From the NCBI RefSeq assembly GCF_900188425.1, contig NZ_FZON01000036.1, forward strand, positions 1-51,394: a stretch of DNA of 51,394 nt, given 5' to 3'. The stretch's first letter is position 1; each line of letters opens with the position of its first letter. Source of the DNA: Antarctobacter heliothermus (GTDB lineage: Bacteria > Pseudomonadota > Alphaproteobacteria > Rhodobacterales > Rhodobacteraceae). Position numbers and translations under genes: made by a program. Shown piece by piece: positions 2,652 through 37,697 of this stretch. The notes under the pieces are model-generated. The model was not told the DNA's origin. It worked only from the letters and a program-made list of their open reading frames with translations, and did not search any database.

Positions 2652-3194
2652 ATGGCCCATGATGACCTCGACATCGTTGGACAAATCGATACCCTGCGCC
2701 GCTATGCACGCGTCCTGACGCGCGACGCCGAAGCCGCCGACGACCTTGTGCAGGCGACCTTCCTGCGGGCGCAGGAGCGGCGCGCGACCTTCCGCGAGGG
2801 GGCGGATGTACGGGTCTGGCTCATGGCGATCCTGCACAATCTCTTCATCGACACCCTGCGCAGCGCGCGGGCGGCGCAAGCACGCGAACAGGCATGGGCG
2901 GAGACGCGACCGTCCTTCGTGGAGGCGTCCGGCGAAATGGCGGCACGGCTGGCGCAGCTGCGTGCCGCATTACTGTCGCTCAGCGCCGAACAACGCGAAG
3001 CGCTGCACCTGGTGGCGGTAGAGGGGCTCGGACCGATCGAGGCGGCGCAGGTTTTAGGTGTGCCGCCGGGCACGGTGATGTCGCGCGTCGGCCGGGCGCG
3101 CGCGGCACTCCGAGCCTTCGAGGACGGTCGGGGTGAGGCAGCGTCGGCAAAACCATTCAGGATTGTAGGAGGACGCGATGAGCGACAGGACTGA
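2652..3194 (+). CDS. ECF-type RNA polymerase sigma factor
   Basis: 180 aa, the usual ECF length with only regions 2 and 4. Region 2 covers about residues 10-75 (RRYARVLTRDAEAADDLVQ, then RVWLMAILHNLFID). Region 4 covers about 105-160 (LSAEQREALHLVAVEGL, then the helix-turn-helix AAQVLGVPPGTVMSRVGRAR). AAAGGAG lies upstream of the ATG; an earlier ATG at 2642 runs into a stop. Its last 17 nt overlap the start of the membrane anti-sigma gene, the standard arrangement of a sigma factor held inactive by its partner. Target promoters are unknown. Confidence 0.9.
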   Translation: MAHDDLDIVGQIDTLRRYARVLTRDAEAADDLVQATFLRAQERRATFREGADVRVWLMAILHNLFIDTLRSARAAQAREQAWAETRPSFVEASGEMAARLAQLRAALLSLSAEQREALHLVAVEGLGPIEAAQVLGVPPGTVMSRVGRARAALRAFEDGRGEAASAKPFRIVGGRDERQD

Positions 3195-3945
3195 GGTCGA
3201 TCCGGACATTGAGGCTGACCTTCTGGCGCTTCTCCAGGGGCGTCTTGACCCTGATCGCACCCTTGCGATTGCCGATTACCTGAACGAGAGGCCGGAGCGG
3301 ACAGCGGAGTTGCTTGCCGATGCAAGCAACACTGCCGCACTGCGAATGGCGCTTTCATCTGCGGACGATCCGGTGCCGCCTCGACTCGTGGCGGAGGCGC
3401 AGCGTTTGCAGGGCCGTTTGCGCGGGCAGCGCGTGTTGCGTCGCGCTGTTCCCTTCGCGGCAGCCGTGGTTCTGTTCGCAGCAGGTTGGGTTGGCCATGC
3501 GACGTGGCAAATGACCGGGCCCGCAAGCGCTCCACCGCTGGTGGAGGCGGCGCTCGACGCGCAGTCGGCGCTGGAGCTTCGACACTGGATGGTATCGCAG
3601 CCCGAAACTGCGGACCTGAACGCGCAGGAGATCGTCGCTGCGCTCGGGGTAGACCTGCCGTCCTTGCCCGAGGATTGGACAGTGCGCGATGTGCAAATCG
3701 TCGCAACACCTGATCGCCCCGCCATTGCAATTGTAGTAGACGCTCCCGATCTCGGACGGCTCTTGCTGATGGTTGTTGCTCGCAGCCCCGAAGACACAGA
3801 GGAACCGCCGAGTGCCTTCGAGTACCAGGGACGCACCATCGCCCTCTTCGAGCGCGGCCGGTCCTCCTTCGTACTCGTCGATGAGTCCGGTCATCCCGAT
3901 CAATTGGCGCTTGGCGCCGAGAGGCTGCTGTCGGCAAGCGACTGA
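3178..3945 (+). CDS. Membrane-anchored anti-sigma factor
   Basis: 255 aa. An acidic N-terminal cytoplasmic part (about 1-85) would bind the sigma factor. One transmembrane segment (about 91-107, VPFAAAVVLFAAGWVGH) is followed by a C-terminal ~145-residue part predicted outside the cytoplasm. No zinc-binding HxxxCxxC motif of the ZAS type is seen. Assignment rests on the 17-nt overlap with the ECF gene plus this topology. The start has AGGAGG (3167-3172) about 5 nt upstream. The signal that would release the sigma factor cannot be read from sequence. Confidence 0.8.
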   Translation: MSDRTEVDPDIEADLLALLQGRLDPDRTLAIADYLNERPERTAELLADASNTAALRMALSSADDPVPPRLVAEAQRLQGRLRGQRVLRRAVPFAAAVVLFAAGWVGHATWQMTGPASAPPLVEAALDAQSALELRHWMVSQPETADLNAQEIVAALGVDLPSLPEDWTVRDVQIVATPDRPAIAIVVDAPDLGRLLLMVVARSPEDTEEPPSAFEYQGRTIALFERGRSSFVLVDESGHPDQLALGAERLLSASD

Positions 3946-4041
3946 CATGACGCAGTACCCGCATAATGGGATGCCGATGACGAAGGAAACACCTTCGGTA
4001 GCATCGTCGTGTTGAACACGAGAAACGAAAAGAAGGATCAT

Positions 4042-4296
4042 ATGCCTCCATCTACACGGCCTGACGATATCAAACCGAAATCCGAGCGCCGCCCAACTTC
4101 CAAGCTGTTGCGACTTGGGAAACAAACGCCAAGGTTGCCGATCCGAGGTAGATACCGCAACTCGAACGCATCGATCTGGGTTCTCGCAATCTGCATTGCG
4201 ATTGCCTTGATCCTGCGCAGCACCACGGACGCGGAGTCACGGGAGATTTGTCGTGACTGCCCGCTCAGTCCCGCGATTCAGTCATCCGACGGCTAG
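4042..4296 (+). CDS. Small single-span membrane protein, unknown function
   Basis: 84 aa from the ATG at 4042, which has AAGGAT upstream; an in-frame ATG at 4009 lacks a ribosome site. A strongly basic N-terminal tail (residues 1-43) precedes one hydrophobic segment (about 44-59, SIWVLAICIAIALILR), and a short C-terminal tail contains two Cys (ICRDC). By position, 96 nt after the anti-sigma gene, it may be the last gene of the ECF operon or a target of it. No family recognised. Confidence 0.5.
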   Translation: MPPSTRPDDIKPKSERRPTSKLLRLGKQTPRLPIRGRYRNSNASIWVLAICIAIALILRSTTDAESREICRDCPLSPAIQSSDG

Positions 4297-4387
4297 ATGA
4301 TTTTGCGATTTCGGCGAATGTACGGTTCGACGGGCCGCACTGCAGCATCGAACTTGTATGGTCAATGTCCGGTACGGGCCGGTTACG

Positions 4388-4837
4388 TCATTGCGGTGAA
4401 TCTCGCGGGGTCACGTCGCGCATTCCCTTTTGCAGCAGCAGCACCACCTCGTCCGCGGTGAATTTGAACCCCTGCCCGTCCGGGATGCGTTCTGCCGATA
4501 TTGGGTACTTTGGCCTGCGCGGATCGATGCCGACAATCCGGAAGGTCTCGCGGCCGGTGCTGAAATGGCGACCGTAGTCGGTGGCCGACAGTCCGAAGGC
4601 TTCCGCCAGCGCCTCGAAACGAAGCCTTTCCGGGTCGAGCGCAGTCCCGTTCGGAAGCGGGATCGACACGCGGAACGCGAGATCGAAGCCCCACCGCAGA
4701 TCAATCGCCGCGATCTCCTTGGCCTCGACCACCAAGCCATGTCGTGCCGCCACGTCTTGGCAGGCCTTCAGCATCTCATGTGACAGGCGCTGGCAGAGTG
4801 CGGGCGTCAGGTTTCTGGGTGGCTTGGGGTTTGGCAT
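4388..4837 (-). CDS. Hypothetical prophage protein upstream of the integrase
   Basis: 149 aa, transcribed away from the integrase. It is a soluble protein with no membrane segment: an N-terminal helical part (LTPALCQRLSHEMLKACQDVA), a middle part with mixed charge, and an end reading FKFTADEVVLLLQKGMRD. It has normal GC-rich codon use and no overlap with another good ORF, so it is probably real. I do not recognise a family. It sits at the integrase end of the prophage, where control or exclusion genes are often found, but nothing in the sequence supports a specific role. Confidence 0.6.
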   Translation of the reverse strand: MPNPKPPRNLTPALCQRLSHEMLKACQDVAARHGLVVEAKEIAAIDLRWGFDLAFRVSIPLPNGTALDPERLRFEALAEAFGLSATDYGRHFSTGRETFRIVGIDPRRPKYPISAERIPDGQGFKFTADEVVLLLQKGMRDVTPRDSPQ

Positions 4838-5178
4838 GATGCTGGACTCGGGAATCTGAAGATGCGCTGTGGTTTTCGGTATTCGTAACGCATGTGTTCC
4901 ACGGCATCAAACGACGCTCAGCTTGCCAGCGAACTCGTCGACAGGATCCACGACCTGCGCCCGGATCACGATGCCCGGCGCTGATTGTTCGACAGAGTCG
5001 TTCCCTGACCATTCGCGGCGGCGCTGGGCATGCCCATCTAACCCATTGATCTCTCGATCCGGAACTCCCTAGCCCACTTCAATTCCACCTTCCGCCTGTA
5101 TTCCGCCCCTCCCCCCATGCTCTCTCTTGATAACGACGCAGGTCTACGCCTGTGTCGGGGCGCAAGGAGGCTGGAGAC
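4838..5178. other. Region upstream of integrase; possible 30-codon ORF and shared repeat
   Basis: Between the divergent gene at 4388-4837 and the integrase there is no long ORF. A small ORF (4892-4984, 30 codons, helical and charged) has plausible codons but no clear ribosome site. A segment at 5078-5110 is nearly identical to one at 7596-7628 upstream of the excisionase-like gene. The integrase ribosome site AAGGAGG is at 5164-5170. Confidence 0.4.
5078..5110 (+). promoter_or_regulatory. Repeated element, copy 1 (upstream of integrase)
   Basis: 33 bp: the first 22 bp (5078-5099, starting TTCAATTCCACC) are identical to 7596-7617, and the next 11 bp differ at two positions. One copy precedes the integrase and the other precedes the excisionase-like gene. 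That suggests a common protein-binding site such as an operator or a recombinase arm site. No function is proven. Confidence 0.5.
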
Positions 5179-6450
5179 ATGGTCAAGCGACTGAAACTGA
5201 ACGAGAAAGCCCTGCGCGACGCCGAGCCGAAACCGGGCGTCAGCTATCAGGTTTTCGACACCGAGGTGGTCGGATTTGCCGCGCGGATCCAGGCCTCGGG
5301 CGCGCGGACCTTCACCATCGACTATCGCCATGCGGGACGGCAGCGGCGGATGAACATCGGGCGCTGGCCAGAGTGGAGTGTGACGGCCGCCCGCGAGCGC
5401 GCCAAGGAACTGCGCCGCGCCATCGACGAGGGGCACGACCCTCTGGCGGTACGGGAGGACTTTCGCGAGGCCCCGCGCATCAAGGACATGATCGATCGCT
5501 ACATCCGGGAACATCTGCCGAAGCTGGCGAAGAACAATGCCGCTGACCAGACCTCAATGCTTAAAAAGATGGTTGAACCCGCCTGGGGCAACAAGCTGGT
5601 GACCGAGATCACCAAGTCCGATGTCGCGCGGTTTCTTGATTTTGTGGCAGAAGGTCGCCCCCGCCCCAGCAAGGAAAAACCCAACAACCGCGCGCGCAAG
5701 CTGCAGGGGCACAAGCCCACTCCGATCCGGGCGAACCGCACTGGCGAGGTGCTGCGGAAGATGTTCACCCTCGCCATCGAATGGGAATGGCGCACTGACA
5801 ATCCGGCGCAGGGGTTTCACCGGCGCATCGAAGAGGCGCGTGAACGCTTTCTTGGGCCCGACGAACTGGCCCGGATCGCAGCTGTTCTCGACAGCGCCGA
5901 GGATCAGCGCGCGGCGTCGATCATCCGGATGTGCATGCTGACTGGTGCCCGTGTGGGCGAGGTGCGGACGGCGCGGTTCGAACAGTTCAACCTCGACTAT
6001 GTTGTCTGGTCGAAACCCGCCTCGACCACGAAGCAGCGCAAGATCCACCGTGTGCCAATCTCGCAGGAGGTCGTGGCCATCGTGCGCCAGCGCCAGCTGG
6101 TCGTCCCGAAGGGCAATCCATGGCTGTTCCCCGGCGAAACCGTCGGCCAGCCGGTCCGGGAAATTCGCCGCTTCTGGTCAAAGGTGCAGAAGGAAGCCGA
6201 TCTGCCCGACCTGCACATCCACGACCTGCGCCACACCTTTGCGTCCCTGCTCGTCAGCGGTGGCGCGTCGCTGGAAATGATCGGCAAGCTGCTGGGCCAC
6301 AGCCAGATGCAGACCACGCAGCGCTATGCTCACCTCATGGATTCGCCCTTGCGCGCTGGGGTCGACACGGTGGCCAGCCTCCTGCGCCCTCGTCCGCGGT
6401 TGGTGCACGGCGCTGATCAGGATGAGGGCGGCCTGACGAAGTTGGCGTGA
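5179..6450 (+). CDS. int: Tyrosine-type site-specific integrase (DUF4102 N-terminus)
   Basis: 423 aa from the ATG at 5179, which has AAGGAGG 8 nt upstream; the in-frame ATG at 5152 has none. Residues ~5-90 match the DUF4102 DNA-binding domain of P4/CP4-type integrases (VFDTEVVGFAARIQASGART). A core-binding domain covers ~95-200. The catalytic domain follows with R258 (TGARVGEVR), H348-x-x-R351 (HDLRHTF), H374 (LLGHSQ) and nucleophile Y383 (RYAHL), so it is complete. It would catalyse integration and excision of the prophage. Integrases of this class often use tRNA genes, which fits the tRNA-Met scar at 962-1008, but that lies 4.2 kb away and the link is inferred. Confidence 0.93.
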   Translation: MVKRLKLNEKALRDAEPKPGVSYQVFDTEVVGFAARIQASGARTFTIDYRHAGRQRRMNIGRWPEWSVTAARERAKELRRAIDEGHDPLAVREDFREAPRIKDMIDRYIREHLPKLAKNNAADQTSMLKKMVEPAWGNKLVTEITKSDVARFLDFVAEGRPRPSKEKPNNRARKLQGHKPTPIRANRTGEVLRKMFTLAIEWEWRTDNPAQGFHRRIEEARERFLGPDELARIAAVLDSAEDQRAASIIRMCMLTGARVGEVRTARFEQFNLDYVVWSKPASTTKQRKIHRVPISQEVVAIVRQRQLVVPKGNPWLFPGETVGQPVREIRRFWSKVQKEADLPDLHIHDLRHTFASLLVSGGASLEMIGKLLGHSQMQTTQRYAHLMDSPLRAGVDTVASLLRPRPRLVHGADQDEGGLTKLA

Positions 6451-6453
6451 CCC

Positions 6454-7056
6454 TCAGGCCGGTTCTTCGCCGCGCAGCTTGCGCCAGAGTGCTGCCAGGC
6501 GCTTGCGAATGGTGCTTTCCTCCGGCACCTCGCCCGACCTAGAGTTTTGCACGAACCATTCTTGGACCAGCGCCACCAGCGCCGTTTGGCTTTCAGGCAC
6601 GCCTTTCTCGAAGACGAACCACGTCAACCATGCGTACATCGCGTCCCATTCATACCGCGGGGCAGCGCCCGTGTTCGCGGCTGGTCGGCGCATAAGATCG
6701 CGTTCTTCCTCAAACTGCTGCACCGTATGGGCGGCCAAGAGCAGGTCCGAGGATCGGATGGGCAGGCCATCAGGTGGATCAGTTACTTTCAGCCAGGATT
6801 TGCTGCCGGGCGGCAGCACACGTTTCAGGCGGCAAAGCTCATCGCTGGGGCCATAGCGGCGAAACATCGGCATCAACTCGGCAATCGGCACCTCGACCAG
6901 CCCGGCGACGGTTTCGTCATCACAGCTGACCGGTGGGATGCCCGCAAGCACCTGAAAATGCCCGGCTGCGGCCCAGCCTGCAACATCAGCTGCAGGACAG
7001 CCCCAGCGCGCAGAAAGTTCATAAATTGAATAAAAGGCAATCGGCGGTAGTGGCAT
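6454..7056 (-). CDS. Hypothetical prophage protein, convergent with integrase
   Basis: 200 aa if started at the ATG 7056-7054, which has AAAGGAT 7-8 nt upstream on the minus strand; an upstream ATG at 7077 is possible. It ends 3 nt from the integrase stop, tail to tail. The N-terminus reads like a short DNA-binding motif (FYSIYELSARWGCPAADVAGW), the middle is VEVPIAELMPMFRRYG, and the C-terminus is helical and basic (STIRKRLAALWRKLRG). Such a layout suggests a DNA-binding regulator, but this is weak. No named family recognised. Confidence 0.65.
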   Translation of the reverse strand: MPLPPIAFYSIYELSARWGCPAADVAGWAAAGHFQVLAGIPPVSCDDETVAGLVEVPIAELMPMFRRYGPSDELCRLKRVLPPGSKSWLKVTDPPDGLPIRSSDLLLAAHTVQQFEEERDLMRRPAANTGAAPRYEWDAMYAWLTWFVFEKGVPESQTALVALVQEWFVQNSRSGEVPEESTIRKRLAALWRKLRGEEPA

Positions 7057-7372
7057 AGATAAAATCCTTTCAGACATGCTGCATCGTTCAGCCAGAAGCC
7101 GTCGGAACGCGGGGTTACAAAGCCCGCGCTGCCAAGCACGCGGACGGTTTAGGTGCTGAGCCTTGTGTCGAGGAAAACCGCCTGTGGTCCAGAGCCGCGT
7201 CCCTCGGGATGCTGGCACCTGACTGTGTTCGTCTTTTTCGATTCTTGTTTGCTGCTCATCCCCAGAATACGCATCCTATGGGCGAGCACGCAATCACGAA
7301 CCCGTGATAGTCGGCCAATGCAGCCGGTTGCCGTAACAAACTGTTGAGTGCCGTTGAATGTCGGCAGCGCGG

Positions 7373-7386
7373 GACCGGAATTGGTC
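7373..7386. promoter_or_regulatory. 14-bp repeat GACCGGAATTGGTC, copy 1
   Basis: Identical to 7575-7588. The outer four bases are palindromic (GACC...GGTC) and the centre is GGAATT. Candidate operator half of a two-site regulatory region. Confidence 0.35.
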
Positions 7387-7574
7387 GTAGAGGCAATTCC
7401 GCACCGCGTAAATCCCGCGAATCACTGTTAAGAGCCAGCCTCTTTGACCTGCCAGGACGAACGAGCAGTTCAGTCCTGTGACCAGCGCATAAAGCCTTGC
7501 AGTATTGGATCTGTCAGGCGCGCGGTTACGGTCTTTCCATCAATCCAAATCGCCCGAAAGCCCAATGAAACAAG

Positions 7575-7588
7575 GACCGGAATTGGTC
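7575..7588. promoter_or_regulatory. 14-bp repeat GACCGGAATTGGTC, copy 2
   Basis: Second exact copy, 202 bp after the first and 8 bp before the element shared with the integrase leader. Candidate operator. Confidence 0.35.
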
Positions 7589-7595
7589 ATGAGGT

Positions 7596-7628
7596 TTCAA
7601 TTCCACCTTCCGCCTGTCTTCCACCCCT
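7596..7628 (+). promoter_or_regulatory. Repeated element, copy 2 (upstream of excisionase-like gene)
   Basis: Matches 5078-5110 (22 identical bases, then 9 of 11). It ends about 60 nt before the ATG of the excisionase-like gene, a spacing similar to that of the other copy from the integrase ATG (about 70 nt). Confidence 0.5.
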
Positions 7629-7687
7629 CGCGGTCTGCTTCGCTGTCCCTGCCCCCAAGAGAGGGGCATGAGGCAATTGGAGCAGTC

Positions 7688-7936
7688 ATGAAACAACCCC
7701 AGCTTGAGGCCCCGCACGAAACGTTGAATCTTTTGGCTGACTGGATCAGCCGCGAACAGTTGGCGCAGGAATTGGGCCTCACATCCGACACGCTCTCCCG
7801 TTGGGAGGCGCGGCGTCAGGGTCCACCCTGCACACGCATAGGGCGAAAGACGCTGTACCGGCGCGCATCAGTTCAGGACTGGATCCGCGCACAAGAACAG
7901 GTGCACCCGGTGCGCAAAACGCGGGGGCGGTCATGA
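7688..7936 (+). CDS. Excisionase-like HTH DNA-binding protein
   Basis: 82 aa from the ATG at 7688, with TTGGAG upstream; the longer in-frame reading to 7505 is composition-poor. It contains a MerR/excisionase-type winged helix (about residues 18-75): ISREQLAQELGLTSDTLSRW followed by the wing GPPCTRIGRKTLYRRASVQDW. This fold is shared by small excisionases and transcriptional activators that bend DNA. First gene of a tightly coupled early operon: its TGA overlaps the next ATG (ATGA). It shares a leader repeat with the integrase gene, which supports a role in recombination control. Confidence 0.75.
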   Translation: MKQPQLEAPHETLNLLADWISREQLAQELGLTSDTLSRWEARRQGPPCTRIGRKTLYRRASVQDWIRAQEQVHPVRKTRGRS

Positions 7937-8178
7937 GCCTCCTCAACATCTTGCCCTCCAAATGGCCCGCTGAGCGCCTAGCAGAGGCCCGCGCCGTCAT
8001 CGCCGATGTCGCCCACCACAGCGACCATCTGATCCGGCTCGCCTGCAGGGTGCTTGCCACCCATGGCGAGACAGCGGCCGAGCGCGAGGACGCCCGGGTG
8101 CTGCTGGTGGTGATCGATGCGCAGCGTCCCATCCGCACGGCGCAACGCGGCGACGATACCGGGAGGGCCGCACGATGA
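7933..8178 (+). CDS. Small hypothetical early prophage protein
   Basis: 81 aa, start ATG 7933 overlapping the previous stop (ATGA), stop overlapping the next start in the same way. It is almost entirely helical (WPAERLAEARAVIADVAHH, LIRLACRVLATHGE). No motif or family recognised. Position between an excisionase-like protein and a VRR-NUC nuclease points to early DNA metabolism or regulation. Confidence 0.65.
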   Translation: MSLLNILPSKWPAERLAEARAVIADVAHHSDHLIRLACRVLATHGETAAEREDARVLLVVIDAQRPIRTAQRGDDTGRAAR

Positions 8179-8567
8179 ACCGGCGCAGCACCCCCGAGGC
8201 TGACGCCCAGCGCGCCATTGTCGTTGCATTGCGCGTCGCGCTGCCCCGCGACGCCATCGTCCATCACTGTGCCAACGAGGTGACCGTGGCCGGACCGCGT
8301 GGCGCCCGCCGCCAGGCAATCCTGGTCGGCATGGGCGTCCATGCAGGCTTTGCCGATCTGATCGTGATCTCCGGCGGTCGCGTGCTGTTTCTCGAGGTGA
8401 AGAGCGAGACCGGCCGGTTGCGCAAATCCCAGGAGGTGTTTCGCGACACGGTTTGCTCGCAAGGCTTCGCCTGGTCGCTGGTGCGCTCGGTGGACGATGC
8501 GCTGGGTGCATTGGCTGATCATGGCTTCACCAGCCGTGTGCGCCCCGCGCGGAGGGCCCAGCCATGA
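8175..8567 (+). CDS. VRR-NUC domain nuclease
   Basis: 130 aa. It is a compact PD-(D/E)xK nuclease of the VRR-NUC type, with D61 in GFADLIV and E74-V-K76 in LFLEVKSETG, followed by QEVFRDT and a C-terminal helix. Stand-alone VRR-NUC proteins in phages are thought to cut branched DNA or act in replication/recombination; eukaryotic FAN1 carries the same domain. All three catalytic positions are present, so it should be active. ATGA overlaps with both neighbours show translational coupling. Confidence 0.85.
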   Translation: MNRRSTPEADAQRAIVVALRVALPRDAIVHHCANEVTVAGPRGARRQAILVGMGVHAGFADLIVISGGRVLFLEVKSETGRLRKSQEVFRDTVCSQGFAWSLVRSVDDALGALADHGFTSRVRPARRAQP

Positions 8568-30877: not shown

Positions 30878-31192
30878 ATGTCGGTGTTCGAGACGGCGCT
30901 GGGCCGCATCTATTCCAACCCCTCCATGGCGGTGTCCGCGCTCTGGATCTCTGCAACCACCTCGCAGGAACGCACCATCCGCGTGATCCAGCGCGCCCCG
31001 GATCGCATCACCGAATTCGGGGCTGGGCGCTTTGTCAGCGACACCACGATGGTGGACGTGCGTGTCGGTGATCTGCCCAGTCCCCGCTCCGGAGATCTGA
31101 TCGTGATCGGGGTGGATAGCTTCACCGTTCAGGGAGAGCCAGTGCGCGACCGAGAACGCCTGCTCTGGACGCTGGACCTGCGGCCAACATGA
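30878..31192 (+). CDS. Head-tail joining protein, FII-like
   Basis: 104 aa (lambda FII 117). Small beta-rich protein: ALWISATTSQERTIRVIQ, then DTTMVDVRVGDLPSPRSGDLIVIG and EPVRDRERLLWTLDL. Length, position right after the capsid gene and the DVRVxDL pattern fit FII, which caps the head for tail joining. Stop overlaps the next start. Confidence 0.75.
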   Translation: MSVFETALGRIYSNPSMAVSALWISATTSQERTIRVIQRAPDRITEFGAGRFVSDTTMVDVRVGDLPSPRSGDLIVIGVDSFTVQGEPVRDRERLLWTLDLRPT

Positions 31193-31818
31193 GGCTCCGG
31201 ATCGACATTCGGCCTGACATCGCCGCCTTGATGCAGGCAGAAATTGCAGCTGGTGAAAAAGCGGTGTCGGCGGCGATGCGAGAGGCGGGCAGCTCTCTGA
31301 AATCTGACTGGCGGGCACAGATCACCGGCGCGGGTCTGGGGCGAAGACTGGCAAATTCGATCCGCAGTCAGACCTTTCCCAAAACCGGCGACAGCCTGAA
31401 CGCGGCGGCGCTGGTCTGGTCCAAGGCCCCGGTGATCATCAACGCGCATGACACCGGCCCGCTGATCCGGTCCAAGAATGGCTTTTGGCTGGCAATCCCC
31501 ACCCCCGCAGCCGGGAAGAGCACCAAAGGTGGCCGCATCACGCCCTTTGAGTGGGAACGTCGCACCGGCTTGCGCCTGCGGTTCATCTACCGCCGTCGCG
31601 GGCCAAGCCTGCTGGTCGCGGAGGGGAGATTGAATACCAAGGGTCGCGCGGTGGCGTCCAGATCAAAGACAGGACGCGGCGTGGCAACCGTGCCAATTTT
31701 CCTGCTGGTCCCGCAGGTCAAACTGCGCAAACGGCTGGATCTGGCCCGGGATGCAGAGCGCGCGGTGGACGGCGTGCCGGGGCTGATCGTGGCGAATTGG
31801 GTAGGGGCGAGGCGGTGA
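31189..31818 (+). CDS. DUF6441-type tail-completion protein (lambda Z position)
   Basis: 209 aa. Basic protein with AAMREAGSSLKSDWRAQITGAGLGRRLANSIR, AALVWSKAPVIINAHDTGPLIRSKNGFWLAIPTP, and a C-terminus FLLVPQVKLRKRLDLARDAE, which I associate with DUF6441. Lies where lambda carries the minor tail protein Z gene, so a tail-completion role is likely. The phage gene order is broken directly after it by foreign DNA and resumes at 36081. Confidence 0.75.
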   Translation: MRLRIDIRPDIAALMQAEIAAGEKAVSAAMREAGSSLKSDWRAQITGAGLGRRLANSIRSQTFPKTGDSLNAAALVWSKAPVIINAHDTGPLIRSKNGFWLAIPTPAAGKSTKGGRITPFEWERRTGLRLRFIYRRRGPSLLVAEGRLNTKGRAVASRSKTGRGVATVPIFLLVPQVKLRKRLDLARDAERAVDGVPGLIVANWVGARR

Positions 31819-32021
31819 CCAATTTTGCGGTTGATGGGACTTCGAAGATATTGCGGGAAAAGAGACGAACGGCTTGCTGCGGACCTTCGTCGACGGCGCA
31901 GCTAACGGCAGCAGTGAGCCCACTTTGACCGATGCTGCGATGCCAACGAATGTCAGCTTTTCCTGGCGCCGCTCCGAGCATAAACTTGGTCCGAAGTCAT
32001 GGCCCTCCGTGCCAATAAGCG
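31819..32021. other. Foreign spacer between phage gene and IS3
   Basis: 203 nt, less GC-rich than the phage genes and without a supported gene. It is bounded by the end of the DUF6441 gene and the IS3 left end. It may be leftover cargo, possibly downstream sequence of the large leftward gene cut by the IS. No homology could be recognised. Confidence 0.4.
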
Positions 32022-32074
32022 TGAGACATTTGACTGTCTGAAGTTTACACTTGAGGGCGAAGGAGACCGAACCC

Positions 32075-32554
32075 ATGGTAATGCCTTCACAGATGCCGCT
32101 TTCAGCGGATGCCGGATCTGAGATTTCGCCTGCGATGCCACCCTCTCGTGTCGTGGCTGCGCCGAGTGTCCCGACGGCCGAGCTGACAGCCACCCCGAAG
32201 CGGCGCAGTTTCACTGCAAAATACAAGCTGCGCATTCTGAACGAAACGGACCGCGCGGCGGATACGGGTGGCGTTTCAGCCATTCTGCGGCGGGAGGGGC
32301 TGTACTCTTCGGCGCTGACCGACTGGCGGCGACAGCGCGCGGCAGGCACGTTGGGAGCCTTGCAACCCCGCCCGCGTGGCCCGGAAAAGGTACCTGTCAA
32401 TTCCCTGCAAGCCGAGTTATCCAAAGCACACCGCGAGGTCTCCGCACTGCGTCGGCGCCTGGATCAGGCAGAGGCGATCATCGCAATCCAAAAAAAAGTT
32501 GCGGCACTTCTGGACGAGATGGAGCAGACGCCAGAGCGCAGCGGCAAATCATGA
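32075..32554 (+). CDS. IS3-family transposase OrfA
   Basis: 159 aa from the ATG 32075, with AAGGAG upstream. HTH region [19 protein letters not shown], then [23 protein letters not shown], followed by a leucine-rich coiled coil ([20 protein letters not shown]). A run of eight A then G (32490-32498) gives A AAA AAA G in frame, and the -1 frame stays open from there into OrfB. An OrfAB fusion by frameshift is therefore possible in addition to ATGA coupling. Confidence 0.85.
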
Positions 32555-33564
32555 TGGCCGCAGCAATTGCCTTGCCTGCGGGCAGCGGCCTTACGACGGC
32601 CGTTTGTGCTGCGCTGTCGGTATCTCGGGCAAGCGTTCTCAGGCATCGCGCGGCGCTTCTTGCCCCGCCTCGCACCCAAAAACCACGCCAGCCGTCCCCG
32701 CGGGCCTTGCCCGAAGTCGAGCGCGATCAGGTGCTTGCACATCTGCGCACACCCCGCTTCGCCGATCAGACACCCACTGAGGTCTTTGCCACCTTGCTGG
32801 ACGAAGGCGTCTACCTCTGCTCGATCCGCACGATGTATCGGATCCTTTCCGCGCAGGGGGAAGTTGCCGAGCGCCGCCGACAGCGCCGCCACCCGGTCTA
32901 TCAGAAGCCCGAACTGCTGGCCGAAGCCCCCAATCAGGTCTGGTCATGGGATATCACCAAGCTGATGGGGCCGGTGAAATGGTCCTACTTCTACCTCTAT
33001 GTCATCCTCGACATCTTCAGCCGCCGCGTCGTTGGCTGGCGCATCGAGCACGCCGAAAGTGCAAACCAGTTCAAGACCCTGTTCATCGACGCGATGGACA
33101 AACATGCCGTGCCACCCAACCAGCTGACGTTGCACGCAGATCGCGGCGGACCAATGAAGGCAAAGGCCACGGCCCTGATGCTGACCGATCTCGGCGTGGT
33201 CAAATCTCACAGCCGACCACACACGTCGAACGATAACCCCTTCTCGGAAGCCCACTTCAAAACAATGAAGTATCAGCCAGAATTCCCGAAGCGGTTTGAA
33301 ACCATCGACGAGGCCCGCGCTTTCTGCCGCATTTTCTTTGCCTGGTATAACCAAGACCATCATCATTCAGGGATTGGGCTTATGACACCTGACCAGATGC
33401 ACTTCGGGCAGGCCGAGGAAATCTATGCCGCACGACAGGAAACCCTGGACGCCGCATTCCTCAGCACGCCCCAGCGCTTCGTCCACAAGCCGCCAAAACC
33501 ACCTCAAATCCCGACCGCAGTTTGGATCAATCCACCAACCCATACGGAAGACGAACAAGTCTAA
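32551..33564 (+). CDS. IS3-family transposase OrfB (DDE integrase domain)
   Basis: 337 aa. A rve-type integrase core: first Asp in [21 protein letters not shown], second Asp in [14 protein letters not shown], Glu in [18 protein letters not shown], then the [12 protein letters not shown] end. It reads intact, so the element may still be mobile. The ATG overlaps the OrfA stop (ATGA). Confidence 0.92.
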
Positions 33565-35713
33565 AGTCCAAACCACGCTGTCTCAAAGTCGTTGACACGT
33601 TCCGTGGGGCGAAAGGATGTATTCCTTGCACCCACCCCAAGAATACCTCGTCAGACGACGGTGTTTCGCCGGAAATAGCGCGACCCAAGCCAGCCAAAGC
33701 AGGCGCGAAGCGTGCTTGATACTCTGTGGATTGATTGCCCGCTGTCGATTCGATGCTCTCGAATGCGACACCCTGTTCCGCCGGGGTCAATTCGGACATG
33801 AACGCGATCATCTGGCGCCACGCATAGGCGGTGTTCTTCGTCATCTGCAATTTAGCGCGCCAATCGGTTAGTGGCGTCTGCTGGCGCCAGCAAATCCATT
33901 CAAAGCACCGAAGTGCCATGTCCTCAAATCTAAGGTCACTCAAATCAAGCACGGACAAAACCTGCGCCAGATTGTGGGTCGTGATGATTTGTTGCTGTTC
34001 AATGATCATCCCATTGGATGAAACCGACCAGTTGCGTGTTTTGCGCACGCCAGCACGCTCAGCACAGATTTCAGCAAGACGTAGGGTTCTTTTTTGATCA
34101 GGTAGGTCGTAGTAGCGCGCATAAAGAGTGCCTGCGTAGTAAGACAATCCAACATTCGCCGCCTTCGCGAATTGCTCTGAGAAAGCCCCCATGAAGATGT
34201 CAGCCGCGATCTCATTGGTGAACGGAATTTCCAAATCCGCCAATTTTGCGAGCATCGAAAACTCCTGAATCAGAGTGTTTGGGAAGATCAAGTGTGGGAA
34301 ATGGGTCAAAGACAAGCGCACGAGTTCGGTCAGAGCTTGGAGAGGAATTTCCTTTGCATCGTGTTCGCCATCACGCCGCCGCAAGAGAGCCTGTGCCCAT
34401 GGCAGTTCTTCAAGCCGTACCTGCGATTTCAAATTCAACAAAAGGAGGGACCGCCTGTTGCTGAACGCACGGTATAGGGTGCGGCAGACCTCTGCTTCGG
34501 CTTCCGTCGGAAGGCCTGACGCATAGATGCTGGATGTTATCTGCGGCAAAACCTTGGCCAGCACCTCTGATGCTCCGATCTGCCCGCCTTCAACAAGCTC
34601 GTCGATAGAAGCCATCCTAGCCGAATGAATTCCTCGCTCGAAACTTCGCGGAAGCTGGGCACCGGAAGGACCTCCGACGACTTCTTCGTCTGGTCCAATC
34701 GGGCCAGTGACGCTGCTTGGATCGGCAACGCCCATATCTAGTGGCAATTTGGCTAGGCGCGCTGCCACGATCTTTGCGACAGCATCGTGCCAGACTTTTA
34801 CATCTTGCTCAGCTTGTGATTGGCGGTGTGCGCGCCGCTCTTCTGCTATGCCGTATTTCAACCGGTGCCGCTTAATGATCGTCTCAACATTGTCGTTGGG
34901 ATCGCCGCCTCTCCGCAAGGCGAGCAGCGCGCGCCGAGCCCTTTGGAGCTGTCCGGTCGGCTTTTTCCAACGTTGCGCTGTTGGTGCGGTTAGGGCCTGA
35001 TCGTAGTCGGCACACCAATCATCTACGCGGATTGTCCAACCTTCTGATTCGTGCTCCGCCAGCAGATCGATTAGGCGGTCGTAAAGCGGAATCCATCTCG
35101 TCAGGGTGTTGTGTTGGACGACGATCTGTTCACGCGGAACCTTGCCGCTCAACTGATCGCGAATTTCTTGAACGCTCCGTACAAACGCGCCGTCCGTTTT
35201 TCGTGCTGCGCAGGGCGCCGGATAAAATCTCAATCGATCAAAAAAAGGGGTGATCTCGGCTAGGATTTCCTCCGCAGCATCGGGATCATGTTCCAACAAC
35301 AGACAGACTGTAAGCAGCGCCGTTTCTTCGGGCGTCTGGGCCGCGAACTCAGCAGCCGCCGCTTGCTGGCTCAGCTTTTTGAGGCCTTCGTCGGTCAGAT
35401 GCCAGTTGTTGAGCGCGAGGCGCGCGCGTGAAACATCGGATGTTTGTAGGCCCAACTCTTCCGCCTTAGCAACTTCGTGGGGTCTTAGTTTCCCGCCCGC
35501 CGCGAAAGCAGTGGTTGCAAATCCACCTCGAACCACCTCGGGCGTCGCCCATTTCGGCATGCCCGCAACCGGTGTCCGACTGCCAACGGTGAGATCGCCT
35601 GCCTTCATCGCGGCAAGAACATCGCGCCATTGTCTGATCTTCTTACTGCTTTCAGCGCTTAGGGCTTTGGCAAGATTAAGAAAAGCGTATTTCTCGCCAG
35701 GTTGCTCGGCCAT
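33527..35713 (-). CDS. Large protein of unknown function, 3' end cut by IS3; preceded by a tRNA-like element
   Basis: 728 aa from the ATG at 35713-35711, with AGAGG 5 nt upstream. It is a mostly helical, soluble protein without membrane segments. The N-terminus YAFLNLAKALSAESSKKIRQW is followed by TPEVVRGGFATTAFAAGGKL, a winged-helix-like stretch LNNWHLTDEGLKKLSQ, EITPFFDRLRFYP, and NRRSLLLLNLKSQVRLEELPW in the second half. No nuclease, NTPase or protease motif is recognised. The last ~19 codons ([19 protein letters not shown]) are translated from the IS3 terminus, so the native C-terminus is missing. GC is visibly lower than in the phage genes. It lies opposite to the phage late operon, like a moron or defence cargo. 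The possible upstream start at 35749 lies inside the tRNA-like sequence and is rejected. Confidence 0.8.
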   Translation of the reverse strand: MAEQPGEKYAFLNLAKALSAESSKKIRQWRDVLAAMKAGDLTVGSRTPVAGMPKWATPEVVRGGFATTAFAAGGKLRPHEVAKAEELGLQTSDVSRARLALNNWHLTDEGLKKLSQQAAAAEFAAQTPEETALLTVCLLLEHDPDAAEEILAEITPFFDRLRFYPAPCAARKTDGAFVRSVQEIRDQLSGKVPREQIVVQHNTLTRWIPLYDRLIDLLAEHESEGWTIRVDDWCADYDQALTAPTAQRWKKPTGQLQRARRALLALRRGGDPNDNVETIIKRHRLKYGIAEERRAHRQSQAEQDVKVWHDAVAKIVAARLAKLPLDMGVADPSSVTGPIGPDEEVVGGPSGAQLPRSFERGIHSARMASIDELVEGGQIGASEVLAKVLPQITSSIYASGLPTEAEAEVCRTLYRAFSNRRSLLLLNLKSQVRLEELPWAQALLRRRDGEHDAKEIPLQALTELVRLSLTHFPHLIFPNTLIQEFSMLAKLADLEIPFTNEIAADIFMGAFSEQFAKAANVGLSYYAGTLYARYYDLPDQKRTLRLAEICAERAGVRKTRNWSVSSNGMIIEQQQIITTHNLAQVLSVLDLSDLRFEDMALRCFEWICWRQQTPLTDWRAKLQMTKNTAYAWRQMIAFMSELTPAEQGVAFESIESTAGNQSTEYQARFAPALAGLGRAISGETPSSDEVFLGWVQGIHPFAPRNVSTTLRQRGLDFRLVRLPYGLVD

Positions 35714-35725
35714 AGTTGCCTCTGT

Positions 35726-35800
35726 TGGGTCCGAGGGCGGGACTTGCACCCGCGCTCCCCGGGTTACGAGCCCGGTGCTTTGCTACTAAGCTACCTCGGA
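35726..35800 (-). tRNA. tRNA-like element, anticodon CGT (Thr), abnormal D- and T-loops
   Basis: 75 nt with four perfect stems: acceptor TCCGAGG/CCTCGGA, D GCTT/AAGC, anticodon CCGGG/CCCGG with loop CTCGTAA (anticodon CGT), T GCGGG/CCCGC, then discriminator C and an encoded CCA. The D-loop is only AGTAGCA and lacks the G18-G19 pair; the T-loop is TGCAAGT instead of TTC-type. U1-A72 and C73 do not suit a threonine tRNA. It ends 12 nt before the ATG of the large leftward gene and is probably on the same transcript. It may be a divergent tRNA, a decoy, or a structured leader mimicking tRNA. Confidence 0.8.
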
Positions 35801-36080: not shown

Positions 36081-36503
36081 ATGCCCACCACCCGCGAAAC
36101 CGTCCTCGCCGCGCTGCATGCGCGACTGCAACCGCTTGCCGCTCTTGTTTTGCGCGATGAGGTTCTGCCCGAGCGGATCCCGGCCGATGGGCTGATCATT
36201 TTGCGCGACGGCGAGCCGGGGGAGCCGGAGGTGACGCTGTCGCCGCTGCGCTACCACTATCAGCACCGCGCCGAGCTGGAGGTTGTCGTCCAGGTTGGGA
36301 CCAGCCGGGCGAGCGCCTTCGACGCCCTGATTGCCGCCATCGGGCAAGTTCTGGAGGCCGACCGCACGCTTGGCGGCCTCTGCGACTGGGTCGAACCCGA
36401 AGCCCCGGCCTCGGTCGATCTGCCCATCGAGGGCGCGGCGGCGCTGAAGGCTGCGGTGATCACGCTCAACTTGCACTACACCACAACCGGCCCGCTGGCC
36501 TGA
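36081..36503 (+). CDS. Tail terminator / minor tail protein (lambda U position)
   Basis: 140 aa (lambda U 131). Patterns RETVLAALHARLQPL, LRYHYQHRAELEVVVQ, FDALIAAIGQVLEADRTLGG, and AALKAAVITLNLHYTTTGPLA match small tail-terminator proteins, which stop tail-tube growth and join tail to head. Lies directly before the tail-tube gene as in lambda. Confidence 0.75.
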   Translation: MPTTRETVLAALHARLQPLAALVLRDEVLPERIPADGLIILRDGEPGEPEVTLSPLRYHYQHRAELEVVVQVGTSRASAFDALIAAIGQVLEADRTLGGLCDWVEPEAPASVDLPIEGAAALKAAVITLNLHYTTTGPLA

Positions 36504-36527: not shown

Positions 36528-36749
36528 ATGGCACGTGCGCAAGGCGCGCGGGCGCAGATGGCGCTTGCGTTTGAGACGGTTTACGGCACCCCGCCGGTCA
36601 GTGGGTTCACCAAAATGCCCTTCGCCAGCACCTCGCTGGGATCGGAGCAACCGCTTCTGAACAGTGAATTGCTGGGTTACGGCCGCGATCCGCTGGCCCC
36701 TATCAAGGATGCGGTGACGGCAGACGGCGACGTTGTCGTGCCGATTGAG
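36528..36749 (+). pseudogene. Tail-tube protein, N-terminal fragment (split by IS110)
   Basis: 74 codons: ARAQGARAQMALAFETVYGT, VSGFTKMPFASTSLGSEQPL, then TADGDVVVPIE, where the IS110 element interrupts. Removing the element and one TGAG joins this to 37911-38621 in frame and restores a 310-aa protein (VVVPIE-AFGFWLKAAFG). Tail-tube subunits form the tube the DNA passes through, so the break should prevent functional tails. The frame runs on into IS sequence as far as 37001. Confidence 0.85.
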
Positions 36750-36755
36750 TATCCG

Positions 36756-37697
36756 TCATGCGCAAGCGGGTCTTTTGGCCCAAAGACGGTCGGCTTTGAT
36801 GAGTGCGTTCGCGATCTCGATAAGCTTGCGCATGAGTGCCACCAGAGCGACTTTCGCGGGTTTTCCAGCATCACGCAGTTGCTGATATTTGGCCTTGAGA
36901 TCCGGATTGAACCGCATGGCGACAAGAGCCGGCATGTAAAGCGCATCCCGGAGCGGTTTGCGCCCGCCGCTGATAAAGGACTTACCCTTCCATTGGCCTG
37001 ACTCCCGTGTGTGCGGAACCAGTCCGGCCAAGCTCCCAGCCTGCTTTCGTCCCAGAGTGCCGATTTCGGGCATGAAGGTCAAAATGGCGGCAGCGGCAAT
37101 TGGGCCGATACCCGGGATCGATCCCAGAATGTAGCGCTTCCGTGCGGCCGATTTATCTTCGGAAATGCGGCGCGCGATCTCGGCGTCGAGCTCTACGAGT
37201 TGGCGCTCTACCAAGGCCAGGCGGGTCTTGCTCTGACGCTTCAGAAGGGTGTCTGTCAGGATCAATCGGCGATTGCGCAAGCGCCCGCGTTCCTTGATCA
37301 ACGCTACTCGTGCCGTCTGCAAATCACGGAGATCGCGCAGATTTTCCGAAATGGGCTCGTCGGGTTCCAGGCCCAACGCGACCCCCATACGCGCCAGACA
37401 CTGGGCGTCCACCGCATCCGTTTTGGCATGTGTGCCAAGGGCCTGCGCAAAGCGACGCGCCTGCAACGGATTGACCTTCACTAGAGGCAGCTTGCCTGAG
37501 AGAGCGGTTTCGAGCCGCCGATGATAAGGCCCCGTCGCCTCGTACACGATGCGCGTCACCTCGAAAGAATTCAGCCATTTCTGGAGGGCGCGCAAACCCT
37601 TCGCCGAATTCTCGAACCGCCGCGCATCATCTGCCTCCAGATGAAATGCATCGAGGTGGGATTTGGAAATGTCGATCCCGATGTTATGCTCCGTCAT
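36756..37697 (-). CDS. IS110-family transposase (DEDD recombinase)
   Basis: 313 aa. The RuvC-like DEDD domain starts HNIGIDISKSHLDAFHLEAD and continues with VYEATGPYHRRLE and KTDAVDAQCLARMG, giving the acidic residues. The C-terminal transposase_20 domain contains LGSIPGIGPIAAAAIL and the Ser-containing LAGLVPHTRESGQWKGKSFISGGR. Complete. Members of this family use an RNA encoded in the non-coding end to choose target and donor. Confidence 0.93.
   Translation of the reverse strand: MTEHNIGIDISKSHLDAFHLEADDARRFENSAKGLRALQKWLNSFEVTRIVYEATGPYHRRLETALSGKLPLVKVNPLQARRFAQALGTHAKTDAVDAQCLARMGVALGLEPDEPISENLRDLRDLQTARVALIKERGRLRNRRLILTDTLLKRQSKTRLALVERQLVELDAEIARRISEDKSAARKRYILGSIPGIGPIAAAAILTFMPEIGTLGRKQAGSLAGLVPHTRESGQWKGKSFISGGRKPLRDALYMPALVAMRFNPDLKAKYQQLRDAGKPAKVALVALMRKLIEIANALIKADRLWAKRPACA

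Follow-up and report, generated by a model that had tools for sequence, protein, structure and literature searches.

The tRNA-like RNA and the gene for a large helical protein that we describe here from Antarctobacter heliothermus form one conserved module, whose RNA bears the marks of selection without being a tRNA that decodes. Both lie on the minus strand of the stretch analysed, which we call the window (NCBI RefSeq assembly GCF_900188425.1, contig NZ_FZON01000036.1, positions 1 to 51,394 of the forward strand, 51,394 nucleotides (nt) in length), with the RNA at 35726-35800 and the native part of the gene at 33605-35713. Because the pair recurs in distantly related bacteria, at times beside RNA-repair enzymes, it looks like an undescribed RNA-protein machine. 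The explanation that we favour, and which we hold to be evenly balanced between right and wrong, is that the conserved module yields an excised tRNA mimic that is bound by the helical protein in a ribonucleoprotein (RNP), most likely one that serves in the response to tRNA damage.

The RNA-protein pair in the window and in its relatives

An alignment of plasmid relatives of the protein (A1) was used to scan 84,980 species genomes. The scan gave 410 candidate stretches, 315 of which encode relatives, and the loci studied here are the best 80 of these 315 together with six plasmid loci, 86 in all. A covariance model of the RNA (R1), built from 57 RNAs, was run on the window and on all 86 loci with a cut-off of 68 bits, and it places an RNA immediately upstream of the gene and on the gene's strand in 75 of the 86. 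R1 was trained on many of the RNAs that it then detected; ARAGORN, which had no such training, alone makes a tRNA call on the gene's strand in 62 of the 86 loci. An earlier note, made from the window's sequence alone, had proposed a two-part RNA-protein module, and this is borne out by the relatives. Its suggestion to look for homologues that lack the RNA also turned out in favour of the finding, with 75 loci carrying it, ten lacking it and one (L074) beginning at a contig end. The first in-frame start codon follows within 32 nt of the RNA in 73 of the 75 loci; it lies at most 1 nt from the RNA in 35 of them, mostly Actinomycetota, and 6-96 nt away in 40. Ten loci carry two to three tandem copies of the RNA, and wherever several copies are listed, which is so for eight loci, at least two of them have different anticodons. 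By eye, and unscored, TTG-like and TA-rich boxes are seen right before the actinobacterial RNAs.

In the window itself, the sole tRNA call of ARAGORN is a tRNA-Thr(CGT) of 75 nt, and the same RNA is matched by Rfam RF00005 with 65.1 bits (E 5.4e-12) and by R1 with 85.7 bits. Its stems have 7 (acceptor), 4 (D), 5 (anticodon) and 5 (T) base pairs, and 12 nt separate its 3' CCA from the ATG at 35713, so that ARAGORN, Rfam and the sequence agree on the tRNA cloverleaf with an encoded CCA 12 nt before the gene that the earlier note had pointed out. The other features listed there, U1-A72, C73, the CGT anticodon and TGC in the T-loop (TGCAAGT), are likewise present. The claim that G18-G19 is missing holds for position 18 only, which is A; G19 is there, and the elbow consists of an A18-G55 pair and a normal G19-C56 pair. 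Since A18-G55 covaries with G-U in the relatives, what had been taken for an altered elbow is a compensated one. Taken by itself the fold carries little weight (z -2.07, with 5 of 200 shuffles equally stable), and it is the comparison of relatives that makes the tRNA-like RNA real. The next-best R1 match in the window's genome, at 72.9 bits, is an ordinary tRNA-Asn according to an ARAGORN check, and the Rfam scan found no YrlA at gathering score in the window.

The evidence for selection comes from the 57 aligned RNAs (alignment A4), which were chosen mostly from ARAGORN matches. Standard pairs fill 99.0% of the cells of the 21 cloverleaf pairs, 15 of which have changed on both sides, and the covariation score of 0.558 compares with 0.165 +/- 0.011 for shuffled and at most 0.113 for slid versions of the alignment. 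Covariation among relatives thus upholds the proposal that selection has kept a tRNA shape, with its perfect stems, while the loops have changed. The contacts of the tertiary core change in the same paired manner: 18-55 is A-G in 28 RNAs, G-U in 27, and U-G and G-C in one each; 54-58 is U-A in 40, G-G in 16 and C-A in one; 15-48 is G-C in 50, A-U in five and something else in two; and 19-56 is G-C in 52 of the 57. On the protein tree the state of position 55, G or U, has switched at least four times.

The letters usual in a decoding tRNA at positions 1, 55 and 73 are a different matter. G never occurs at position 1, where the pair 1-72 is C-G in 32 RNAs, U-A in 24 and U-C in one, and A never occurs at position 73 (C 21, G 19, U 17), while U55 is found in 27 of the 57; among 36 ordinary tRNAs from three of the same genomes, which are best-scoring ones and not a random draw, G1 is found in 29, A73 in 21 and U55 in all 36. 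CCA is encoded in 20 of the 57 aligned RNAs. Anticodon-loop statistics (A5) were taken from 87 of the 92 matches, those of at least 68 bits. Seven of these loops have 6 nt and 80 have 7 nt; in the latter C32 and U33 are invariant, 27 anticodons occur, and A34 appears once. We considered hypervariability of the anticodon and dropped it, since the entropies at positions 35-37 (1.70-1.82) equal those of other free positions such as D-loop column 21 (1.84) and acceptor column 3 (1.87). Positions 35-37 thus vary about as much as the freest positions elsewhere in the RNA, which shows a lost anticodon identity and not an arms race. The family thus has a cloverleaf with a tRNA tertiary core, and lacks both a constant anticodon identity and a uniform 7-nt loop.

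The protein and its gene

The complete open reading frame (ORF) behind the RNA, 33527-35713 on the minus strand, encodes 728 residues starting at the ATG named above. Its stop codon has been replaced by an IS3-family insertion sequence (IS) at 32003-33604 on the plus strand, which by BLAST shares 80.7% identity with a region of the Octadecabacter plasmid NC_020910.1 annotated as an IS3 family transposase and which has an rve domain within its ORF 32551-33564. The last 25 or so codons, 33527-33604, are therefore IS-derived and outside the native protein, as indicated by the BLAST match of the IS, by comparison of C-termini and by the low predicted local distance difference test (pLDDT) values of residues 706-728, the disordered part of the protein's model. 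The two nearest relatives, L009 and L010, end in HPFSP and HPFCP, and the window protein reads HPFAPR and then runs into IS sequence; because these relatives stop where the window protein meets the IS, the native protein can be put at about 703 residues and is essentially complete, which agrees with the other full-length relatives.

The statement that the gene belongs to no recognised family was confirmed. The window protein (P0001) has no significant family in Pfam, PADLOC, NCBIfam or PHROGs, and 28 diverse members have none in Pfam, PADLOC or NCBIfam, where only single-member matches arose (best E 0.007, 0.029 and 0.0025, respectively). An AlphaFold2 model made with a 67-sequence alignment is confident and almost entirely helical, with a pLDDT of 90.7 and a predicted template modelling score (pTM) of 0.87, and Foldseek gave no match at E 0.001 for it in PDB (best 0.19) or BFVD (best 0.14). 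Judged by this model and these searches, the protein is novel, with neither a family model in the libraries searched nor a recognisable fold. Its alignment contains the invariant polar residues R420, R421, E501, D505, E572, Q573, N581 and R633.

The closest relatives, L009 and L010, come from alphaproteobacterial metagenome-derived genomes and are 62-63% identical to the window protein. Single-protein searches in near relatives returned the window's own genome only (1 of 147 and 1 of 385), and alignment A3 matched two of 398 Pseudomonadota genomes, the window's own among them; from these few matches we take the module to be sporadic. The alignment used for the tree (A2) holds 67 proteins, those of 66 of the 80 genome loci and that of the window, L060 having been omitted because of a frame break and others as near copies. 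By record title the 67 span ten phylum-level groups, including Pseudomonadota, Actinomycetota, Myxococcota, Verrucomicrobiota, Planctomycetota, Acidobacteriota, Chloroflexota and Melainabacteria/Cyanobacteriota.

A putative ribonucleoprotein, its neighbours and its rivals

In the explanation that we favour, tRNA-processing enzymes would cut the RNA out of a common transcript, giving a free tRNA mimic and an mRNA that would be left leaderless or with a short leader. In the 35 loci where fold and start codon adjoin, translation would presumably require the tRNA-like part to be removed or opened. The large helical protein would then bind the mimic to form the RNP, in which the mimic could occupy or gate a tRNA-binding surface of the protein, and the protein might recognise, hold or hand over damaged tRNAs or their processing enzymes. 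A tRNA body that does not decode points to a role as ligand for a protein that binds tRNA, and the presence of repair genes nearby suggests that damaged tRNA is the business of the module. More tentatively, and inclining somewhat to doubt, we consider that the pair may represent a widespread, as yet undescribed class of bacterial RNPs, made of a new-fold protein and a mimic excised from the protein's own mRNA, that arose independently of Ro60-Y RNA, acts as a damaged-tRNA sensor or chaperone and plugs into RtcBA, ligase-kinase and Hen1-RlaP kits.

The link to RNA repair first showed among the 124 neighbour ORFs of 28 loci, in which Pfam recognised RNA ligase, RtcB and Hen1. Loci L011 and L012 have in common a gene pair of RNA ligase and AAA_33 kinase, and L012 has a second RNA ligase on the opposite side of the module. 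RtcB and RtcA lie immediately upstream of the RNA in L013, RtcB lies directly downstream in L028, and L016 has Hen1 and two RlaP genes. Against a background of 82 RtcB and 42 RNA ligase matches in 361 Mb from 50 genomes, the five RtcB and RNA ligase genes in the flanks, in four of 50 loci, compare with 0.18 expected (P 3.6e-5 for at least four), so RNA-repair genes occur near the pair above chance. A motif search for repair genes had the Hen1 of L016 as its sole true match; the RtcB that it suggested in L058 was a false lead, not borne out by whole-genome RtcB matches. No gene generally accompanies the pair, and the largest neighbourhood clusters are loose. PADLOC matches among the 124 neighbour ORFs were to Mads, viperin, PD-T4-6, PDC-S02 and RecD, few per family and with no background control, and we conclude nothing from them. 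The earlier note had also raised a defence or tRNA-sensing role; the protein matches no PADLOC model, and the neighbourhood signal for which a background was available speaks for RNA repair. Two of the repair loci have further features of their own. At 2705-4654 on the plus strand of L013 an intein (PF14890) splits the RtcB, after which come RtcA, the RNA and the gene of the module in this order, and at 741-2683 on the minus strand of L016 the two RlaP-family genes lie near Hen1, in a locus where the module has two tandem RNAs, one with a 6-nt anticodon loop.

Several observations weigh against an RNP that works in tRNA damage. RNA-repair genes (RtcB, RtcA, RNA ligase, Hen1 or RlaP) lie within 6 kb in only five of the 86 loci, which is few; the repair families were named after they had been seen, and the proteins found became the phmmer seeds for all 86 loci, 58 of which were probed by these seeds alone. 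A sigma-70 scan upstream of the window's RNA gave no promoter. A Shine-Dalgarno-like motif is found in only 13 of the 40 loci with a gap of at least 6 nt, and we do not lean on translation signals. Ten loci (L019, L027, L028, L029, L034, L035, L038, L040, L044 and L046) have no upstream RNA, and if the protein works without it there, the RNA is dispensable. Nor were orphan copies of the RNA found in genomes without an adjacent one, where the top R1 matches are ordinary tRNA-Pro and tRNA-Asn; four top R1 matches were verified by ARAGORN, three of them in such genomes.

The losses of the RNA cluster in Corallococcus and its kin, in Obscuribacterales, in one Comamonas and in one Planctomycetaceae bin (L028), and three changes on the protein tree account for presence and absence. 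In the DNA fetched for nine of the ten loci, Rfam matches no tRNA at all. The exception, L028, has at 3046-3457 on the minus strand an array of some five tRNA-like units in which position 55 is G, located 2.5 kb away and on the other strand, of which four score 36-58 bits with RF00005. The same contig also carries a TROVE gene about 8.7 kb from the gene of the module.

An alternative that we think unlikely, although it keeps a real share of our belief, is that the fold stays in the mRNA as a cis-acting leader through which the protein or tRNA-binding enzymes switch translation of the gene, as ThrRS does at the thrS operator. A start codon that touches the 3' end of the fold, as in 35 of the 75 loci, means that translation must be affected, and a tRNA-binding protein would be a natural autoregulator. 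The same set of loci also speaks against a leader, as the start is 6-96 nt off in the other 40 and ten loci have complete tandem copies, and neither the encoded CCA of 20 of the aligned RNAs nor the preserved elbow contacts, which a simple operator does not need, would be expected of it.

We consider it rather improbable that the mimic is a bait for anticodon nucleases, offering an expendable anticodon loop whose cleavage the protein senses in order to act in defence. A conserved body with a variable anticodon (27 triplets), copies that differ in anticodon within eight loci, mobile carriage in the window's prophage and on six actinobacterial plasmid records, and the RNA-repair neighbours would all suit a bait. 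However, the variability at positions 35-37 does not exceed that at D-loop column 21 or at acceptor column 3, so no excess of diversity is seen; the protein matches no PADLOC model beyond the single-member value of E 0.029, and the PADLOC matches among its neighbours have no background to be judged by. In addition, one paper reports that the tRNA-like domain of YrlA is not a substrate of a Salmonella nuclease (PMC7790460).

Distinctly less probable still is that the protein is an enzyme that draws on its own RNA, in charged or modified form, as a tRNA substrate. Such a role would make sense of the CCA encoded in part of the family and of the many invariant polar residues, but the absence of a constant anticodon, of A73 and of G1, together with three different bases at position 73, leaves no single synthetase identity set; seven loops have 6 nt, and no enzyme family or fold was matched. 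That an ordinary tRNA, a decaying one or the scar of an integration chances to precede the gene is hardly credible: ARAGORN and Rfam do both call the RNA a tRNA, yet it turns up next to the same gene in 75 of 86 loci, which refutes this unless the association is a scan artefact, and the compensated changes, the lack of G1 and A73 and the six-nt loops argue against it as well.

The known precedent for the putative RNP is that of Rsr and Y RNA, which are encoded in rsr-yrlBA-rtcBA, an operon that two papers describe as switched on by tRNA fragments (PMC7790460, PMC8394870). As there, a protein is encoded beside a non-coding tRNA mimic, here in 75 of 86 loci; a link to rtc genes may be shared as well, with rtcB and rtcA beside the module in L013 and rtcB in L028, though in no other of the 86. 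The components are different, however. The 28 members of the protein family have no Pfam TROVE match at E up to 0.5, hhalign of the family against four TROVE proteins gave a probability of 0.1%, and no Ro60 is found among the best 50 Foldseek matches of the model. YrlA consists of a long basal stem and a partial tRNA domain, whereas the RNA described here is a full tRNA body with an anticodon arm, and the YrlA model RF02553 gave one weak match, in L005, at 26.8 bits against a gathering score of 69. Since the protein is not TROVE and the RNA is below the YrlA threshold, the module at most works like Ro60-Y RNA. By analogy, the RNP would resemble Ro60-Y RNA by position and company, without homology, and its job is probably tRNA damage or repair.

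Two other systems invite comparison. The thrS operator and T-boxes likewise have, ahead of a gene, an RNA that mimics or recognises tRNA, but the RNA here is a complete compact tRNA with a 3' end and an elbow, occurs in tandem in ten loci, and precedes a gene in which family searches see no synthetase. Transfer-messenger RNA (tmRNA), too, mimics a tRNA and acts together with a protein of its own, SmpB (PMC8394870). In contrast to these, the present RNA has no mRNA domain or tag and ARAGORN makes no tmRNA call at these places, and the protein, at about 700 residues, is not of the size of SmpB.

The possible precedent for the RNA should also be considered. Burroughs and Aravind reportedly described, in 2016, "a novel tRNA-like molecule" associated with SPFH/Band-7 proteins in RNA repair. 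This is a tRNA-like RNA in an RNA-repair setting, as ours is, but the protein family described here has no Band_7 match in the 28 members, and Band_7 ORFs are near only two of the 86 loci. Band_7/SPFH ORFs adjoin the module at 6575-8389 on the minus strand of L009 and at 4233-5459 on the plus strand of L048. Their molecule may be the nearest prior mention and is possibly the RNA described here; if it is the same, the RNA half is not new, which would leave the protein half and the covarying elbow as what may be. In our literature searches, for which most subscription papers were beyond reach, we recognised no description of this RNA-protein pair.

The prophage setting and the meaning of the pair

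In the window the pair runs opposite to a prophage late operon, which comprises terminase, portal, protease, major head protein and tape measure genes. The earlier note had placed it between two tail genes. This is borne out on the right side only, where a tail terminator (phrog_4204) lies at 36081-36503 on the plus strand; on the left, the late gene at 31189-31818 on the plus strand (phrog_6367) has no known function; both assignments are PHROGs matches. The note's view of the pair as prophage cargo describes a position that is cargo-like here, yet it finds no support as a general trait, as a search of 50,697 phage records gave no relative of the protein. Two scans of the viral contig collection gave no protein relative, and three exact tRNA-like patterns searched in viral contigs had no match, which answers the question of whether the same RNA occurs alone in phages in favour of the module. 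Phage carriage was thus observed solely at the window's locus. Six actinobacterial plasmid records encode relatives with 31-38% identity (tblastn of plasmid records), and blastn of one RNA against plasmids matched 241 records, of which the 15 listed, at 77-79% identity, were taken unchecked for ordinary tRNAs.

Two further features of the window belong to this setting. Positions 963-1022 on the minus strand read as the 3' part of an initiator-Met tRNA gene (28.7 bits with R1), and this fragment is possibly a remnant of the attachment site of the prophage. In the tail region, an IS110-type transposase gene (DEDD_Tnp_IS110, Transposase_20) at 36756-37697 on the minus strand overlaps an ORF that starts at 36528.

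If the favoured explanation is true, bacteria evolved protein-bound non-coding tRNA mimics on more than one occasion, and the RNA-damage response gains a protein family that has no model in the libraries searched and no recognisable fold. The family also provides natural tests of tRNA architecture, in which G-U is swapped for A-G at 18-55 and U-A for G-G at 54-58 as paired changes. Finally, such pseudo-tRNAs may be annotated as real tRNAs with odd anticodons, and would then distort tRNA gene counts.

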